Shown piece after piece: positions 1-7,660 of a stretch of 64,000 nucleotides of DNA. A model generated the notes under the pieces. It had not been told where the DNA came from, searched no databases, and was given only the letters and a program-made list of their open reading frames with translations. Position numbers and translations under genes: made by a program. The stretch lies in contig JAHEGI010000001.1 of NCBI GenBank assembly GCA_024639785.1, positions 1 through 64,000 on the forward strand, in the 5' to 3' direction. This stretch comes from Cryomorphaceae bacterium. GTDB taxonomy: Bacteria > Bacteroidota > Bacteroidia > Flavobacteriales > Schleiferiaceae. Numbering within the stretch: the first letter of the stretch is position 1; the number at the start of each line of letters is the position of its first letter.

Positions 1-172
1 TATCCAGGTAAGCATCATCGGACTTCAGGGTCAGTTGTTGGTGAACACCGAATGGACTGCAGGCCAGAGCGAACTCAACATCGACTTGAGTGACCTCGCT
101 GCCGGCGTCTACATGGTACGCCTCAGCGCTGAAGAAGGAACACGCACCTTGCGTGTCGCCGTTCAGCGATAA
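1..172 (+). CDS. T9SS cargo protein, C-terminal end only
   Basis: This is the last 56 codons of a gene that begins before the window; the reading frame enters at base 2. The visible part is a type IX secretion C-terminal sorting domain: hydrophobic beta strands, then LAAGVYMVRL and a basic end (VAVQR). It matches the 3' end of the next gene at 169 of 172 bases; the only differences, at 122, 124 and 126, change one Thr to Ser. In the family this domain carries the protein across the outer membrane and is removed when the protein is anchored. The rest of the protein cannot be seen. Confidence 0.9.
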   Translation, partial: IQVSIIGLQGQLLVNTEWTAGQSELNIDLSDLAAGVYMVRLSAEEGTRTLRVAVQR

Positions 173-183
173 GAGAAAATCAC

Positions 184-212
184 AGCAAGGGCCCTCGGGT
201 CCTTGCTTTCTT
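184..212 (+). terminator. Rho-independent terminator, first of two
   Basis: A 10-bp stem (one G:U pair; arms 184-193 and 198-207) has a 4-nt loop and is followed by TTCTTTT. It lies 12 nt after the stop codon of the partial T9SS gene. The same hairpin-then-hairpin arrangement follows the next T9SS gene. Confidence 0.75.
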
Positions 213-262
213 TTCTAAAGTGTTGGCATTTATGTGATTATGAGTTTTTACAGTGTCAACCA

Positions 263-290
263 GCCGCCTCAGAAATGAGGCGGCTTTTTT
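263..290 (+). terminator. Strong Rho-independent terminator, second of two
   Basis: A perfect 9-bp GC-rich stem (arms 263-271 and 276-284) with a GAAA tetraloop is followed by six T and a further T-rich run. It lies inside the inverted-repeat-bounded segment and would insulate the two T9SS genes in the orientation seen here. Confidence 0.9.
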
Positions 291-331
291 ATTTTTTGGG
301 GTTATTAACACCAACATGTGGAAATATTGGC

Positions 332-339
332 TACATTTC
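332..339 (+). promoter_or_regulatory. Candidate -7 box for the large T9SS gene
   Basis: TACATTTC resembles the Bacteroidota -7 consensus TAnnTTTG with one change. It would give a leader of about 30 nt that begins near the right arm of the inverted repeat. No convincing -33 TTG is seen at the usual distance. The box lies inside the segment bounded by the inverted repeats. Confidence 0.4.
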
Positions 340-372
340 GCCCCAAACTCATAATCACATAAATGCTAACTC

Positions 373-3300
373 ATGAAAAATCGTACACTGCGATGGATCG
401 GAGCGGTAGCCCTTCTCGTGCTTTCCGCCCCGATGTTTGCCCAGTTGTCAGGGTCCTATACAATTGACCCAAATGGCTCTGGTACAAACAATTACACATC
501 GTTTACGTCCGCGATTTCGGCTCTGTCGACTTCCGGTGTAAGCGGTGCAGTTACGTTCAATGTCAAGCAAGGCACCTACACTGAGCAGGTGACCATTCCG
601 TCAGTGACGGGAGCTTCGGCAACGAACAAAATCACTTTCCAAGCGGATCCTACCAACACGGCGGCCGCAACGGTAACCTACAGCCCAACTGGCACGGCCG
701 ACAACTGGACGATCCGTTTGAATGGTTGTAGCAACATCACCATCAAAGGTTTAACCATCACCTCAGGTGGTACAACCTATGGTCGTCTCGTTGACTACAC
801 GGGCTCGGTGGGCAACATTTCTATCCTTGATAACACCTTTAACGGTGTAGCGGGTACGAGCACAAGCTCCTACTTCGCAGGCTTGTACTACACATCTCCT
901 GCTGAAGCTCAAGGGAACTGGAATGTTTCGGGCAACACTATGAACGCAGTTTCTTATGCGATCTACGTGTATGGTTCTTCGTACACCACGTCTATGGATT
1001 CGATTTTCATCGAAAACAACGTGATCAACACGACGTACTATGGTTTGTACCCACGCTATGCGAAGTACCAAAAAGTACATGGCAACACCATCAATGCAAC
1101 GGGCACGTATGCTTACAACTACTTGTACTATCCGCTTTATGGGGTTGATGTTCAGAACAACACCATCAATGCGGGCACCGGTTATGGTTTCTACATCTAT
1201 ACCTCAGCACCTAGCGGTTACGCGCCTTACTTGACGATTGAAAACAATACCATCAATGCAGGCACGTATGGTATCTATGCGTCATGTTCGGGTACGTCAA
1301 CGGCTTCTCAGTGGGCTGCTGCTAGCATCAAAAAGAACAACATCGTTCTCTCGGGTACGACCAACTATGGTATTTACTTGAGCTATGCCAACTTCCCTTC
1401 TACTGCTCCCGGCATCATTGAGAACAACATGATTGCTTCAAACGGTACGGGTTCTATCTATGCAATTTACCCCTACCACTGTGCGAATGCGATGATTCAG
1501 CACAACTCGGTGAACGTAAGCGCTGGATCTACAACTGCCGGTCGCGCCGTTTACTTGAACGCGTCAACCTCTACCAGCTACTTCACGCCAGGGGGCAACG
1601 TAATCAAGAATAACGTCATTGTTAATGCAGGCGGAGGTTACGCTCTGGAGGCGTCTTCTTCTGCAGCGGCTGGCACGTACTTCACCTCGGATTACAACAA
1701 CTACTACGCCTCAAGTTCTACCCCATTTGGTTCAGGTAGCTCTACGCTTTCTGCATGGCAGACGGCGAGTTCTCAGGATGCTAACTCTGTTTGGGGTGAT
1801 CCACTATTTACTTCTGCGACCGATTTGCACGTTCAAGGTTCTGCTCCCAACAATGCAGGTGCTGCTTTGGGCGTAGCTACCGATATCGACGGCGACACGC
1901 GTTCTACGACTACGCCTGACATGGGTGCGGACGAATATGCTCCGTTGACCTGTTTTGGCGTTTCGGGCCTTTCAGCCGCAAACGTTTCTGATGTGAGCTT
2001 CGATGCCACATGGTCTTCCAACAACAGCACGACGATTGCATACCAAGTTCGCTACCGCGAAACGGGTTCTAGCGCAGCGTATATGGTTCAAACAGGCTCA
2101 GCATCTATCGCTGGTCTTATGGCTTCTACAAGCTATGATTTCTCTGTGCGTGAAGTTTGCTCTGCAGGAGATACTTGTTCTTGGAGTGCCGACGCTTCTG
2201 TAACGACCGCTGCATGTGCCTTGTCTAACCAGTGCCAATACACGGTATACCTCACGGACTCTTATGGGGACGGTTGGAACGGAAACGTGGTGACCTTTAC
2301 CCAAAGCGGTAACGTAAACGGGTCAGTCACCTTGGCCACTGGAAGCTTGGATACTGCATATGTGGGTCTTTGCTCTTGGGATTCTGTTTCCGTAGATCTT
2401 GGAACCTTGGGTTCTTGGACGCAAGAAGTTGGTTTTGTTGTAACGGACGCTGCGGGAGACACCGTGGTTGTGCATACCGCAGGATCAACGATGACGGCAG
2501 GTCAGAACTTTGGATCTTTCCTCCCTGTTTGTACGGCTTGTCCTCCAGCAGACATGTGTGCCTTCACGGTGAACATGACCGATGCGTATGGTGACGGCTG
2601 GAACGGTAACACGGTAAGCTTCATCCAAAACGGCTACACAGTTGGTACCGTGGGTGGCGGCTTTACTTCGGGATCGTCCTACACAGAGACCATTATGCTC
2701 TGTGACGGTGTTGCAGTAACCGCGCAAGTCGGAACCCTTGGTTCATGGACGGATGAAGTTGGCTTCACGGTGGTGGATCCTGATGGCAACACCAAGTTGA
2801 CGCGTGCCTCTGGTACGACGTTCACGGCTTCTACGGTATTCGGCACGTTCACGGCGGCCTGTTCTACTCCAAGCTGCCCTGTAACTGACACCTTGAGTAT
2901 TGCTTCGCAAACGTCTTGTGGACCTTCTTCGGTAACCTTCACGGCGAGCCCTGCGACGGCTACTAATACGGTAGTTTGGTTGAATAGTGACTCTGTTGCT
3001 GTAGGTAACGGAAATAGCTACACCACAGGAGCAATTACGGCCAATACAGATTACTACGCAACGGTATTCGCTGACGATAACCAAGCGAATGCGATTAGCT
3101 TCGGTCCTTCTTCAACGTTGACCGGTGGCTTCGGCAACTTCACCAACGGTATGTGGTTCTCTGTTCAGAAGCCTATGTCTTTGGATTCTATCTCGGTTGT
3201 TTCCAACGGATTGGTGAACTTCCAGGTTCGCATTTCTACCGCGGGTGGCGCGATTGCTACGGGTAATGTAGGTACGGAGTTGATTCGTTCTAATCCGATA

Positions 3301-5424
3301 TCTGTTACTGCGGCAGGCACACACCAAGTAGCTGTAGGCTTGACTTTGATGCCAGGAACCTACTTCATGAACATGGCTTTCTTGGCGGGTACGACGGGCG
3401 CACTTCACCGTGCAACGGCAGGTGGTTCATACCCCTACACCGCTGCAGGTGTGGCGAGCATTGACTCTGTTCAGTTTGGTTCTGCTACGAGCCAAGTACG
3501 CGTATACTACGCCTACGACTGGGTGGTTTCTGAAGGTTGTGTAGGCCCTGTGTCTACGGCCTCAGCGATCTACGCTCCGGTTCCTTCTACGGCTATTCCT
3601 TACAGCGTAGACTTCAACAGTGGCATTCCTTGTAACTGGATTGCTTCGTCCACAACTAGCCAAAACTGGGCAGGTGTTACATCCTACGGGGCTAGCAGCT
3701 TGGACGGAACGGCGTTTGTAATGATTGACGATGATGCTGCCGGTTCTTCAGCAGGTGCTGTGGACGCCGCCTTGACATCTCCAATCATGAATGCCATGGG
3801 CTATGATACGCTGACGGTTGAGTTCGACCACTACTGGAGAAGCTACACTGGAACGACGGGTTATGTTGAAGTATACGACGGCACCAACTGGGTAACGATC
3901 GATACAATGACGGCCACGCGCGGTTCTTGGACGGCTCCTGCCCATGAGATGTATAATGTGACGATGTACCAAAATGCGGACTTCCAGGCTCGCTTACGTT
4001 ACGTAGACGCGACTGGAACATGGGGCTGGTACTGGGCTGTAGACAACTTCCTTGTCGACGGTGCCTTGACACCTTGTACGAACGTTCGCGTTGAAGTCTT
4101 GACGGACATCTACGGTTCTGAGACCTCTTGGTACATCAAGGACATCAACACCGGCGTGGTGTGGGCGACGGGTGGACCTTATGCTGATGTGTCTCCTTAC
4201 AATGCTGCGGCTGCCTTACACGTTGACACGGTATGTATCCCTGACAATGGCACCTATGAGTTCCGTATTAATGACTCGTATGGCGATGGTTTAGATGATG
4301 GAACCAACGCAGGTTGGTACCAAGTAGACATCTTGTGCCCATGGGGTGACAACCGCGTTGCTACGATCGACACTACGTTGACCTCTGTGAATGGTGCTCC
4401 ATGGGGTGCATTCCACTACGGTTCTACGACGAACGCACCGATGTATGACTCAACGGTCTTCACGATTAGCTGTGTTCAGTACACGAACGTGACCTTCCAG
4501 GTAGACATGAACAAGGTTACTCAAGGCTTCACAACGCCTGAAGTAAACGGTACATGGAACAACTGGTGTGGTAGCTGTAACGCGATGAGTGATGCCAATG
4601 GTGACAACATCTGGGAGGTTACCCTTCCTTTGGAGCAAGGCACTACGGTAGAGTTTAAGTACTCTGCTGACGGCTGGAGCATCCAGGAGATGAATGACCC
4701 CACGGCATCTTGTACCAACGGTAACGCCACGTACACCAACCGTGTGTTGACGATTCCTGCCAGCGACACAATCATCCCAGTAGTTTGCTGGAGCTCTTGT
4801 GACGCGTGTTCAATCGAGGTAACCCTCAATGTGAACATGGCTTGGGAAGTTGCCAACGGTGCAGTAAGCACGGACGGTATCCACGTAGCTGGAAGCTTCC
4901 AAGGTTGGAGCCCCTCTACGACAGAAATGACGGATCCTGACGGTGACGGCATCTACTCTGTGACGCTTGAAATGCCTTTGAGCCAAGACTTGTTCTACAA
5001 GTTCATCAATGGTAATGACTGGGCAGTAGCTGAAGCAAGTGGCGACCTCGCAGCTTGTGGTGTAAGCGATGGCTTCGGTGGCTACAACCGTCATTCTGTG
5101 ACGGCGAATGCGGATACCAACTTCGCTGCAGTATGTTTCACGAAGTGTTACGACTGTGCGGTGAGCATTGATGAGGCCTTGGGCAACATCAGCTTGTATC
5201 CTAACCCGACGTCAGGTGCCTTCACCATGGAGCGCAGCGAACTCGCTGGGGATATCCAGGTAAGCATCATCGGACTTCAGGGTCAGTTGTTGGTGAACAC
5301 CGAATGGACTGCAGGCCAGAGCGAACTCAACATCGACTTGAGTGACCTCGCTGCCGGCGTCTACATGGTACGCTTGACCGCTGAAGAAGGAACACGCACC
5401 TTGCGTGTCGCCGTTCAGCGATAA
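373..5424 (+). CDS. Giant modular T9SS-secreted surface protein
   Basis: A 1683-residue secreted protein. In order: a signal peptide (about 1-24, ending MFAQ); a parallel beta-helix region rich in N-N-T-I-N-A turns (about 30-515) closing with the MGADEY motif common after such helices; a fibronectin-III-like domain (about 524-612); two related domains marked by YGDGWNGN (about 622-720 and 728-835), a likely calcium-binding loop; an Ig-like stretch (about 845-905) and another beta domain; a MAM-like/choice-of-anchor domain (about 1075-1232) opening IPYSVDFNSGIPCNWIA; a third DSYGDG-type domain (about 1235-1365); two starch-binding-fold-like domains (about 1372-1475 and 1481-1595); and a T9SS type A sorting domain (about 1605-1683; LYPNPTSG). 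The family role is cell-surface adhesion or glycan contact, but no catalytic site was recognised. It is probably a tandem paralogue of the partial gene before it. Confidence 0.9.
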   Translation: MKNRTLRWIGAVALLVLSAPMFAQLSGSYTIDPNGSGTNNYTSFTSAISALSTSGVSGAVTFNVKQGTYTEQVTIPSVTGASATNKITFQADPTNTAAATVTYSPTGTADNWTIRLNGCSNITIKGLTITSGGTTYGRLVDYTGSVGNISILDNTFNGVAGTSTSSYFAGLYYTSPAEAQGNWNVSGNTMNAVSYAIYVYGSSYTTSMDSIFIENNVINTTYYGLYPRYAKYQKVHGNTINATGTYAYNYLYYPLYGVDVQNNTINAGTGYGFYIYTSAPSGYAPYLTIENNTINAGTYGIYASCSGTSTASQWAAASIKKNNIVLSGTTNYGIYLSYANFPSTAPGIIENNMIASNGTGSIYAIYPYHCANAMIQHNSVNVSAGSTTAGRAVYLNASTSTSYFTPGGNVIKNNVIVNAGGGYALEASSSAAAGTYFTSDYNNYYASSSTPFGSGSSTLSAWQTASSQDANSVWGDPLFTSATDLHVQGSAPNNAGAALGVATDIDGDTRSTTTPDMGADEYAPLTCFGVSGLSAANVSDVSFDATWSSNNSTTIAYQVRYRETGSSAAYMVQTGSASIAGLMASTSYDFSVREVCSAGDTCSWSADASVTTAACALSNQCQYTVYLTDSYGDGWNGNVVTFTQSGNVNGSVTLATGSLDTAYVGLCSWDSVSVDLGTLGSWTQEVGFVVTDAAGDTVVVHTAGSTMTAGQNFGSFLPVCTACPPADMCAFTVNMTDAYGDGWNGNTVSFIQNGYTVGTVGGGFTSGSSYTETIMLCDGVAVTAQVGTLGSWTDEVGFTVVDPDGNTKLTRASGTTFTASTVFGTFTAACSTPSCPVTDTLSIASQTSCGPSSVTFTASPATATNTVVWLNSDSVAVGNGNSYTTGAITANTDYYATVFADDNQANAISFGPSSTLTGGFGNFTNGMWFSVQKPMSLDSISVVSNGLVNFQVRISTAGGAIATGNVGTELIRSNPISVTAAGTHQVAVGLTLMPGTYFMNMAFLAGTTGALHRATAGGSYPYTAAGVASIDSVQFGSATSQVRVYYAYDWVVSEGCVGPVSTASAIYAPVPSTAIPYSVDFNSGIPCNWIASSTTSQNWAGVTSYGASSLDGTAFVMIDDDAAGSSAGAVDAALTSPIMNAMGYDTLTVEFDHYWRSYTGTTGYVEVYDGTNWVTIDTMTATRGSWTAPAHEMYNVTMYQNADFQARLRYVDATGTWGWYWAVDNFLVDGALTPCTNVRVEVLTDIYGSETSWYIKDINTGVVWATGGPYADVSPYNAAAALHVDTVCIPDNGTYEFRINDSYGDGLDDGTNAGWYQVDILCPWGDNRVATIDTTLTSVNGAPWGAFHYGSTTNAPMYDSTVFTISCVQYTNVTFQVDMNKVTQGFTTPEVNGTWNNWCGSCNAMSDANGDNIWEVTLPLEQGTTVEFKYSADGWSIQEMNDPTASCTNGNATYTNRVLTIPASDTIIPVVCWSSCDACSIEVTLNVNMAWEVANGAVSTDGIHVAGSFQGWSPSTTEMTDPDGDGIYSVTLEMPLSQDLFYKFINGNDWAVAEASGDLAACGVSDGFGGYNRHSVTANADTNFAAVCFTKCYDCAVSIDEALGNISLYPNPTSGAFTMERSELAGDIQVSIIGLQGQLLVNTEWTAGQSELNIDLSDLAAGVYMVRLTAEEGTRTLRVAVQR
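5253..5424 (+). repeat. 172-bp near-identical copy of the window's first 172 bases
   Basis: This encodes the sorting domain of the large T9SS protein and differs from bases 1-172 at only three positions. Identity stops one base after the stop codon, so the shared tract is tied to coding sequence. It reflects recent duplication or gene conversion and is a substrate for homologous recombination. Confidence 0.95.
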
Positions 5425-5436
5425 GCAATCCTAAAT

Positions 5437-5465
5437 AGCTAGGGCTTTCGGGCCCTAGCTTTCTC
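5437..5465 (+). terminator. Terminator hairpin after the T9SS gene, first of two
   Basis: A 9-bp stem AGCTAGGGC/GCCCTAGCT (5437-5445 with 5452-5460) is followed by a pyrimidine-rich TTCTCTT tail. It begins 12 nt after the stop codon. Confidence 0.75.
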
Positions 5466-5467
5466 TT

Positions 5468-5500
5468 AGACCGCCCCAGAGATGGGGCGGTCTTTTTTTT
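5468..5500 (+). terminator. Terminator hairpin after the T9SS gene, second of two
   Basis: A perfect 11-bp stem (5468-5478 with 5483-5493) with a GAGA loop runs straight into eight T. With the preceding hairpin it forms a double terminator like the one after the first T9SS gene. Confidence 0.9.
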
Positions 5501-5514
5501 GGCCCGGGTCGAGG

Positions 5515-5522
5515 TATCTTTA
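5515..5522 (+). promoter_or_regulatory. -7 box of the peptidase-paaZ operon
   Basis: TATCTTTA matches the Bacteroidota -7 consensus TAnnTTTG except for the last base. It sits after the double terminator and 26 nt before the first start codon of a six-gene operon. Confidence 0.55.
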
Positions 5523-5548
5523 GGGCTTAAGGCTCAAACACCCTTTCT

Positions 5549-7660
5549 ATGGCACGTATTCTTTTGTTTTCGGCAGCAGTTGCTGGCCTATTAACCGCTT
5601 GCAACATGGGCACTAAACACTCTTCGGATATGACCGCTGCATATCCCGAAACGCGGTACGATCCCTACGGATGGCTGGAGAACGACCGAAGCGAGGAAAC
5701 AGCCGATTGGGTGACCCGCCAAAATGCCGTTACGCAAGACTACCTGAACCAGATTCCCTACCGCCAAGCTTTGCGTGAGCGCTTGACCACGCTTTGGAAC
5801 TACGAGAAAATTGGCGCTCCCTTTGTGGAAGGGGGGCACACCTACTTCTATTACAACGATGGCTTGCAGAGTCAGTACGTCTTGAAACGTGTTCAAATCA
5901 AAGCCTACGACTTTAGGGAGGCAGAGGTCTTCCTCGACCCCAACACCTTTAGTGAGGACGGCACCACGTCCTTGGGGGGCATTTCGTTCAGCCCGGATGG
6001 CAGTTTGGTGGCCTATCAGATCAGCGAAGGCGGTAGCGATTGGCGCAAAGTGATTGTCTTGGATGCCGCGAGCAAAGAGATTCTAGAGGACACCTTGGTG
6101 GACGTGAAGTTCAGCGGCCTCGCATGGCGCGGAAACGAGGGCTTCTACTACAGCAGCTACGAAAAGCCCAAGGAAGGATCCGCCTTATCGGCTATGACCG
6201 ACCAGCACAAGCTGTTTTTCCACACCTTGGGACGCCCCCAGGCGGAGGACGCCTTGATCTTTGGGGGAAGCAAGACACCTCGGCGCTACATCGGCGCGAG
6301 TATTACGGAGGACGGTCAGTACTTGGTGGTGACGGCGGCGGTTTCGACGACGGGCAACGAGCTCTACCTACAGGATTTGAAAAACGGCAGCGAGCTGCAG
6401 TTGGTGGCAGGCGGCTTTGAGAAAGAGTACGGTGTAGTGACTTCGGAGGAGGGGATGATTTACATCCAGACCAATGACGGCGCGCCGAATAACCGGATTA
6501 TGGCGGTTCAAGGGGTGCAGGATCGCAGCGCTTGGACGGAGTTAATTCCAGAGGGTGAGTTTCCTATGAATGTGGTGAGTGGCGGTGGCCGTTTCTATGC
6601 GAGCACGCTGGAGCACGCAGTCAGCCGAGTGGATGAATATGCCTACGACGGTACGCACTTACAGACGATGCAACTGCCAGGGGTGGGAACCGTGGGGGGA
6701 TTTTCGGGGAAGCGTTCGGACCGTTTGATGTATTTCACCTTCACCAATGCGATCACGCCGAGTGCGATTTATAGCTACACGCAGGATGATGGAGCGGGCC
6801 AAATCGAACTCTACCGCCAAAGTGCGATGGACTTTGACCCGAGCGAATTTGTGAGCGAGCAAGTGTTTTATACCTCGAAGGACGGCACCAAAATTCCGAT
6901 GACGCTCAGCTACAAAAAGGGCTTGAAGCGCAACGGCAAGAACCCGACCATTCTCTATGGATACGGGGGCTTTAACATTAGTTTGACGCCGTCGTTTAGC
7001 ACGTCCTACACCGTGTGGATGGAGCAGGGCGGCGTGCTGGCTATCCCAAACATTCGAGGCGGCGGTGAGTACGGCGAAGCTTGGCACGTGGCGGGCACGC
7101 AGCTTCTGAAGAAAAACGTGTTCGAAGACTTTGAGGCAGCAGCCGATTACCTGATTGCCGAAGGCTACACGTCTTCGTCGCATCTGGCCTTGAGTGGCGG
7201 CTCTAACGGCGGCTTGCTGGTGGGTGCGGTCATGACGCGTCGGCCGGATTTGGCGGCGGTGGCCTTCCCGGCGGTGGGCGTTTTGGACATGCTGCGCTAC
7301 CACACCTTTACCGCCGGTGCAGGCTGGGCTTACGACTACGGTACGGCGGAGGACAGTGAGGAAATGTTCCAGTACTTGCTGAGCTACAGCCCCGTGCACA
7401 ATGTAAAAGAGGGCATCTGCTACCCAGCGACCATGGTGACGACAGCGGACCATGACGACCGTGTGGTGCCTGCACACAGCTTCAAGTTTGCGGCGGAACT
7501 CCAGGCCAAGCAGGACTGCTCGACGCCGACGTTGATTCGGATTGAGGTCAATGCGGGCCATGGCGCCGGCAAACCCACGGCCATGGTGATCGAAGAAGCC
7601 ATAGATAAATTTGCGTTCGCCCTGTGGAACATGGGGTACGCGACATTGCCCAACCCATGA
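5549..7660 (+). CDS. Prolyl oligopeptidase family (S9A) lipoprotein
   Basis: A serine peptidase of the prolyl oligopeptidase family, expected to cut short peptides after proline in the periplasm. A lipobox (LLTAC, Cys18) predicts a lipid-anchored protein. Residues of about 33-430 form the seven-blade propeller that limits substrate size, and the C-terminal alpha/beta-hydrolase domain carries the triad: Ser552 in GGSNGG, the Asp in DHDDRV (about 634-639) and His671 in NAGHGAGK. The 703-residue length fits the family. It is the first gene of an overlapping operon, its stop sharing 4 bp with the paaZ start. It has no obvious metabolic link to the enzymes that follow. Confidence 0.93.
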   Translation: MARILLFSAAVAGLLTACNMGTKHSSDMTAAYPETRYDPYGWLENDRSEETADWVTRQNAVTQDYLNQIPYRQALRERLTTLWNYEKIGAPFVEGGHTYFYYNDGLQSQYVLKRVQIKAYDFREAEVFLDPNTFSEDGTTSLGGISFSPDGSLVAYQISEGGSDWRKVIVLDAASKEILEDTLVDVKFSGLAWRGNEGFYYSSYEKPKEGSALSAMTDQHKLFFHTLGRPQAEDALIFGGSKTPRRYIGASITEDGQYLVVTAAVSTTGNELYLQDLKNGSELQLVAGGFEKEYGVVTSEEGMIYIQTNDGAPNNRIMAVQGVQDRSAWTELIPEGEFPMNVVSGGGRFYASTLEHAVSRVDEYAYDGTHLQTMQLPGVGTVGGFSGKRSDRLMYFTFTNAITPSAIYSYTQDDGAGQIELYRQSAMDFDPSEFVSEQVFYTSKDGTKIPMTLSYKKGLKRNGKNPTILYGYGGFNISLTPSFSTSYTVWMEQGGVLAIPNIRGGGEYGEAWHVAGTQLLKKNVFEDFEAAADYLIAEGYTSSSHLALSGGSNGGLLVGAVMTRRPDLAAVAFPAVGVLDMLRYHTFTAGAGWAYDYGTAEDSEEMFQYLLSYSPVHNVKEGICYPATMVTTADHDDRVVPAHSFKFAAELQAKQDCSTPTLIRIEVNAGHGAGKPTAMVIEEAIDKFAFALWNMGYATLPNP

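Follow-up and report, generated by a model that had tools for sequence, protein, structure and literature searches.

DNA inversion is a frequent explanation for the phase variation of surface structures in Bacteroidota, and the locus described here would come up as an inversion candidate in a screen for promoters flanked by inverted repeats. In the invertible promoters described for Bacteroides fragilis (PMC3090145) and in the invertons (PMC11892184), a promoter likewise lies between inverted repeats upstream of a surface determinant. Systems that act through RNA come close as well. In the icaR mRNA of Staphylococcus aureus, the 3′-UTR is reported to pair with the translation start region, in cis or in trans, whereby ribosomes are blocked and a substrate of RNase III is made (PMC3868564). 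Asr9, an antisense RNA, is described as complementary to the 5′-UTR of the transposase of ISPpu9 and as tuning translation (PMC8450116). Our search of the literature found no description of the arrangement reported below, which is no proof of its absence.

The locus lies at the very beginning of the window, that is, the whole stretch of 64,000 nucleotides that was analysed, which comes from a marine Bacteroidota genome. Two arms, 222–247 and 345–370, are complementary at 25 of 26 positions with 97 bp between them, and the right arm stops 2 bp short of the ATG (373–375) of gene B; weaker similarity around the arms reaches 212–247/345–380 (36 nt, 86%). All of these dimensions that had been given in the initial annotation (arm length, matches, distance and position before the ATG) were re-measured identically. 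The features of the locus, all on the forward strand, are as follows:

1–172, forward strand: end of the surface-protein paralogue A, its last 56 codons and the stop codon, with the contig starting here; 98% identical to 5253–5425 and matched by tblastn to residues 1628–1683 of the window protein.
184–207, forward strand: hairpin 1, terminator-like, 3′ of gene A; altered in sequence but retained as a hairpin in the relatives G016 and G001.
220–261, forward strand: predicted local hairpin between the left arm and the sequence that follows, −10.8 kcal/mol (z −1.67, matched by 10 of 200 shuffles; z +1.46 for the reverse strand), weak by itself.
222–247, forward strand: left arm, which repeats the gene B leader in antisense; it forms an additional block separating hairpins 1 and 2 that is absent after gene B.
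262–291, forward strand: hairpin 2 with a T tail, terminator-like by pattern scan and fold; the hairpin itself is 262–285.
302–339, forward strand: predicted promoter of gene B, with TTATTAAC at 302–309 and the −7-type box TACATTTC at 332–339; predicted start at about 344.
345–370, forward strand: right arm, which makes up 26 nt of the predicted 5′-UTR of gene B (29 nt in all); its core is common to the A leader and to relatives.
373–5424, forward strand: gene B, a surface protein of 1683 residues with a T9SS sorting domain (PF18962 at 1608–1676).

The inverted repeat is confirmed as real. The 22-base core of the arm has 2 matches within the 64-kb window, against a mean of 0.00 in 100 shuffles, and the 18-base core, with up to 2 mismatches allowed, occurs only at the two arm sites in the whole 1.82-Mb assembly, which is the outcome of the search for further arm copies that had been proposed with the initial annotation. 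When arm pairs were scanned with an exact seed of 10, a score of at least 17 and arms at most 1000 bp apart, 222–247/345–370 was the only pair of such quality in 576,582 of 1,816,599 bases (32% of the genome, window included). No further copy of the arm was found in the scan of viral_contigs, the scan of genome_contigs gave 2 matches, both of them relatives already known, and 4 of the 88 family genomes hold an arm match at up to 1 mismatch; the fourth of these, in G034 of another genus (1 mismatch), looks like chance, its flank being dissimilar by eye. Rfam over 1–6000 gave 8 matches, with E-values up to 5 and all under the gathering scores, and those over 212–380 are miRNA families that reflect the long hairpin. 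A MITE, which had been offered as one possible origin, is rejected: the element is a single copy in the genome, and the lack of a target-site duplication seen before is borne out by eye, with AAAGT before 222 and TCATG after 370. Elsewhere in the window there is a second, weaker repeat, 13823–13850/13949–13976, which is GTTG-rich (28 nt, 86%, 98 bp apart) and has convergent genes on either side.

Contig C16 begins at window base 1, so that no more than the last 56 codons of paralogue A fall within the window; the upstream paralogue named in the initial annotation is thus present, but only to this extent. Its 5′ part probably lies on contig C11, as judged from gene order. There it begins 3′ of a gene that we take to be paaY, from its hexapeptide-type sequence, and then runs off the contig, with 79% identity to B over 754 residues. 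Eleven genomes of the genus have a paaY-like match above 60% identity, and in nine of them the start of a large, secreted-looking ORF comes next (two protein families); as for the other two, G016 stops 50 bases past the match, and all that G001 retains of A is a remnant. We therefore deduce the order paaY–A–B–peptidase from this survey of genus genomes; it is not assembled. Since a different family of secreted-looking proteins stands 3′ of the paaY-like gene in three species (G005, G008 and G010), the site seems to exchange surface genes. Downstream of gene B follow an S9 peptidase and then genes with Pfam domains that, in our reading, would suit a catabolic route, for example the degradation of phenylacetate.

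Over 173 bp at their ends (1–173, 5253–5425), A and B share 98% identity, the remainder being about 74–79% identical, and the 3′ sides of the two genes are alike through hairpin 1 (1–214 versus 5253–5467, 92%); a further near-identical patch lies around 1770–1880. These patches and the common 3′ end look like signs of gene conversion or exchange, and contigs break in or near the surface genes A/B in the own genome (G000), in G001 and in G016. Such signs of exchange are what an explanation without function would draw upon, in which the left arm would be an inverted copy of the B leader that arose by template switching or rearrangement in a variable surface-gene locus and was then carried along with the 3′ end of A. 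We regard this explanation as somewhat unlikely.

As far as its sequence tells, the right arm is an ordinary leader of the protein family, with its core found also in the paralogue and in relatives that have no repeat, as the explanation without function would have it. Ten upstream regions were aligned, seven of the gene B protein family and three of the other family after paaY. TTATTAAC is present in 9 of the 10, and in all 9 a −7-type box (defined as TANNTTTG with one mismatch, or TAnTTTG) begins 29–30 bases further on; ATCAC[A/T]TAA stands directly before the predicted start in 6 of the 7 members of the protein family. Because one-mismatch boxes also occur at 290 (+) and 351 (−), the −7-type box alone is weak evidence, and its spacing to TTATTAAC is the stronger. 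Such a box is reported at −12 to −5 relative to the start (PMC9723704). It is this conserved promoter that sets the predicted start near 344, and with that start the 5′-UTR is predicted to be 29 nt long, of which the right arm accounts for 26. The promoter-like box that had been placed inside the repeat earlier is found again as TACATTTC at 332–339, a predicted element facing gene B. The outer part of the right arm, AAACTCAT, is absent from the A leader, and the similarity of A and B starts at 353. Both leaders hold an AUG 9 nt before the start (B: 364–366 versus 373–375; A: L023 near 2287–2296), which in A shares the reading frame (MLTMKN...), whereas one extra base in B shifts it out of frame; upstream AUGs are described as under-represented in Flavobacterium johnsoniae (PMC6847099).

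A repeat common to the whole protein family was considered and rejected. When 9 leaders were compared with their upstream DNA, each with 100 shuffles, gene B alone stood out, with 0 of 100 shuffles pairing as well; the count was 10 of 100 for A and 19 to 94 of 100 for the other seven.

The left arm is the part peculiar to A. A second terminator-like hairpin follows both A and B (in B by eye), and the left-arm block lies between the hairpins only in A. The predicted fold of 170–292 is strong (z −7.5), and the A 3′-UTR folded alone gives three hairpins, the middle one from the left arm. The terminator that had been noted inside the repeat corresponds to the predicted hairpin 262–285 with its T tail; the terminator scan alone is no proof of it, because it gave 2 sites in 1–1000 against 1.0 expected in shuffles. 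The left-arm block occurs in 3 of 22 genus genomes including the own one (2 of the 21 others searched), and the arm is exact over 23 bp in G016:C18 and G001:C7, in both cases 3′ of a related gene end.

Between the own genome and G016, 8 of 133 aligned bases differ, none of them within a 73-base run that covers the arm (p 0.012); in G001 hairpin 1 is rewritten while the left arm is unchanged, and the identical run at the arm is 24 bases, only somewhat longer than one of 19 bases that G001 and the own genome share in the 3′ region of gene B. Judged by these alignments, the conservation of the left arm is modest, which would fit a copy without function, as would the different genes that the 3′ block adjoins in G000 and G016 and the A remnant beside it in G001; the 23 bases kept exactly in G001 despite the rewritten hairpin 1 next to them, and the clean run in G016, speak against it. 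In G016 an unrelated convergent gene comes after hairpin 2. The G001 contig breaks off 11 bases past the left arm, and at G001:C7:63240–63403 gene A is cut down to its last codons and joined just after a leader-like stretch, with the hairpin and the left arm kept. The right arm was not found in the assemblies of G001 and G016 at up to 3 mismatches, and no B leader is assembled in either.

The same 23 bp, conserved in three species and standing on both sides of the promoter, could instead serve as opposed sites for a regulatory protein by which the promoter of gene B is looped or shielded. This is very improbable, since the assembly has no other site at up to 2 mismatches, G001 and G016 as assembled have single copies only, and the core of the right arm is accounted for as a leader. 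Least probable is an assembly artefact at the contig end. Such a suspicion arises because the contig opens in repeated sequence and its first 370 bases include the whole repeat; but the left arm and its flanks recur in two other assemblies, the A leader, which lies on another contig, matches the core of the right arm, and only the join from about 292 to 352 rests on this one assembly.

The best reading, which we put forward tentatively, is that an RNA antisense masks the start region of gene B. The complementarity itself runs over 26 nt and ends 2 nt short of the AUG, and every pair in RNA of the + strand is standard or G·U: the sole DNA mismatch, 225/367, becomes a G225–U367 wobble. On the other strand it would be A·C, and the G·U outcome has by itself a chance of one in two. 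That is to say, the left arm, 3′ of A and between two terminator-like hairpins, would be antisense to nearly the whole 5′-UTR of B. RNA over the left arm would come from A transcripts that pass hairpin 1, or from read-through into B, and it would pair with the B leader to 2 nt before the AUG and keep ribosomes off. Gene B would be well translated only from its own start near 344 and when there is little antisense RNA; in this way, transcription of A would dampen or exclude B. The pairing of the two mRNAs had been the second suggestion of the initial annotation, and it fits best, given that 26 nt of the predicted 29-nt 5′-UTR belong to the right arm and that the mismatch becomes G·U. The complementarity, its rarity and the return of the left arm in two further species are observed, and the hairpins, promoter, start site and folds are predictions from sequence; that such an RNA is made, pairs inside the cell and acts as a repressor is the part that we infer.

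The predicted folds agree with this antisense reading. The B leader folded alone is open: the mean probability of being unpaired over 345–370 is 0.82 in RNA from 344 against 0.01 in read-through RNA, the AUG itself hardly shifting (from 0.60 to 0.56 in read-through RNA), and read-through RNA 160–420 folds at −102 kcal/mol (z −8.7). Structure in the start region is reported to lower translation in Flavobacterium johnsoniae (PMC6847099). The left-arm stretch 208–262 was ranked in duplex with 361 leaders, 355 from ATG ORFs of the surveyed stretches of the own genome and 6 added from paralogue and relatives; B came first at −40.2 kcal/mol, the next at −32.9 and the mean at −18.1, with the A leader at −26.2 and five relatives' leaders at −12.7 to −18.7 kcal/mol. 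In the co-fold of the A 3′-UTR with a leader, the gain is 27.9 kcal/mol for B and 10.3 for A. These folding and duplex numbers are not independent evidence, because they are largely due to the repeat itself and to the two terminator hairpins. Counting against the antisense reading, transcription that stopped at hairpin 1 would leave the left arm out of the A mRNA; likewise, as far as the assemblies go, G001 keeps the arm with only a remnant of A, and G016 has another gene next to it and no right arm. The small change at the AUG, the weakness of the left arm's local hairpin, the modest conservation of the arm and an adjacency of A to C16 that is deduced from gene order weigh on the same side.

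The first suggestion of the initial annotation had been a promoter switch, in which a recombinase acting on the arms would flip 248–344 and turn around the B promoter and hairpin 2. The arrangement is that of an inverton in so far as a predicted promoter and a hairpin lie inside the arms, a surface gene comes next, and the arm length falls within the range of about 10–40 nt given for inverted repeats around a promoter in invertons (PMC11892184). Contigs also break near the left arm in all three genomes that have it (221 bases before it in G000, 66 before it in G016 and 11 after it in G001), for which mixed orientations or the repeated 3′ end could be the cause. However, the inner flank of the left arm is in one orientation in all three assemblies having it, the promoter inside matches that of relatives without the repeat and faces gene B, the arm is unique in the assembly, and no second such repeat occurs in the 32% of the genome that was scanned. 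The switch is thus unsupported, and we consider it distinctly unlikely.

The recombinases of the genome were also surveyed. The search for a nearby one, which had been named as a check on the switch, gave no match to PF00589 or PF00239 on C16 (182 kb) or C11 (62 kb), and Pfam on 18 of the window proteins gave no recombinase of the invertase kind. For serine recombinases (PF00239) there are 0 matches in the genome, of which 1.7% is rated missing, and the same search was positive in 10 of 14 control genomes. Tyrosine recombinases (PF00589) give 3 matches, and none of these reaches a curated cut-off that would type it as an invertase: one is XerD, above the cut-off; the second is closest to XerC, below the cut-off (283 versus 335 bits); and the third has no NCBIfam name and lies next to a damaged copy of a tRNA-Leu gene that also exists intact, so that it looks like the integrase of a tRNA-Leu element. 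This third protein was rejected as an inverter, the best arm match nearby being 17/26 and its gene adjoining the damaged tRNA-Leu copy. Some inverton groups are reported without a link to a nearby invertase (PMC11892184).

A 359-residue tyrosine recombinase at G000:C10:60000-72876 (L130 2506–8433) has next to it a damaged duplicate of a tRNA-Leu(taa) gene that is itself intact, and lies among T9SS-type surface genes. Its 3′ end, with the likely catalytic tyrosine, recurs as fragments in one further place in L130 and in at least five in G019:C27, and fragments are found also in G001:C17, G002:C6 and G021:C76; by its layout, the region looks like a tRNA-integrated element with a cassette-like array.

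If the repeat acts via RNA, lists of promoters between inverted repeats would also contain a second kind of control, which tests of read orientation would discard, and small marine genomes with few recombinases would gain another way of choosing among surface paralogues. The rule is easily searched: a 3′-UTR complementary to its neighbour from the transcription start to the ATG. A dedicated RNA circuit of Bacteroidota lacking SD, in which the 3′-UTR of a T9SS gene would silence the tandem paralogue through an antisense to nearly its whole 5′-UTR and give one-at-a-time display without DNA inversion, is on present evidence unlikely; the element may perhaps also be a standalone small RNA gene, as the arrangement in G001 suggests.

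The invertible promoters of B. fragilis (PMC3090145) and the invertons (PMC11892184) have, as described there, a named recombinase (Tsr19, FinA) and, for several loci, both orientations in the sequence data, neither of which is found here. Asr9 is alike in being an RNA complementary to a 5′-UTR; in contrast, it is described as a transcript from the opposite strand of the same DNA that raises translation (PMC8450116), whereas here a separate antisense copy on the same strand is predicted to lower it, and because Asr9 raises translation the sign of the effect here is not certain. The likeness to icaR lies in a 3′-UTR set against a translation start region, by putative pairing in the present case. 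In icaR, a 7-nt anti-SD motif acts on its own mRNA, as shown by experiment (PMC3868564), whereas at this locus, known from sequence alone, 26 nt would be aimed at the neighbouring paralogue, in a phylum without SD.
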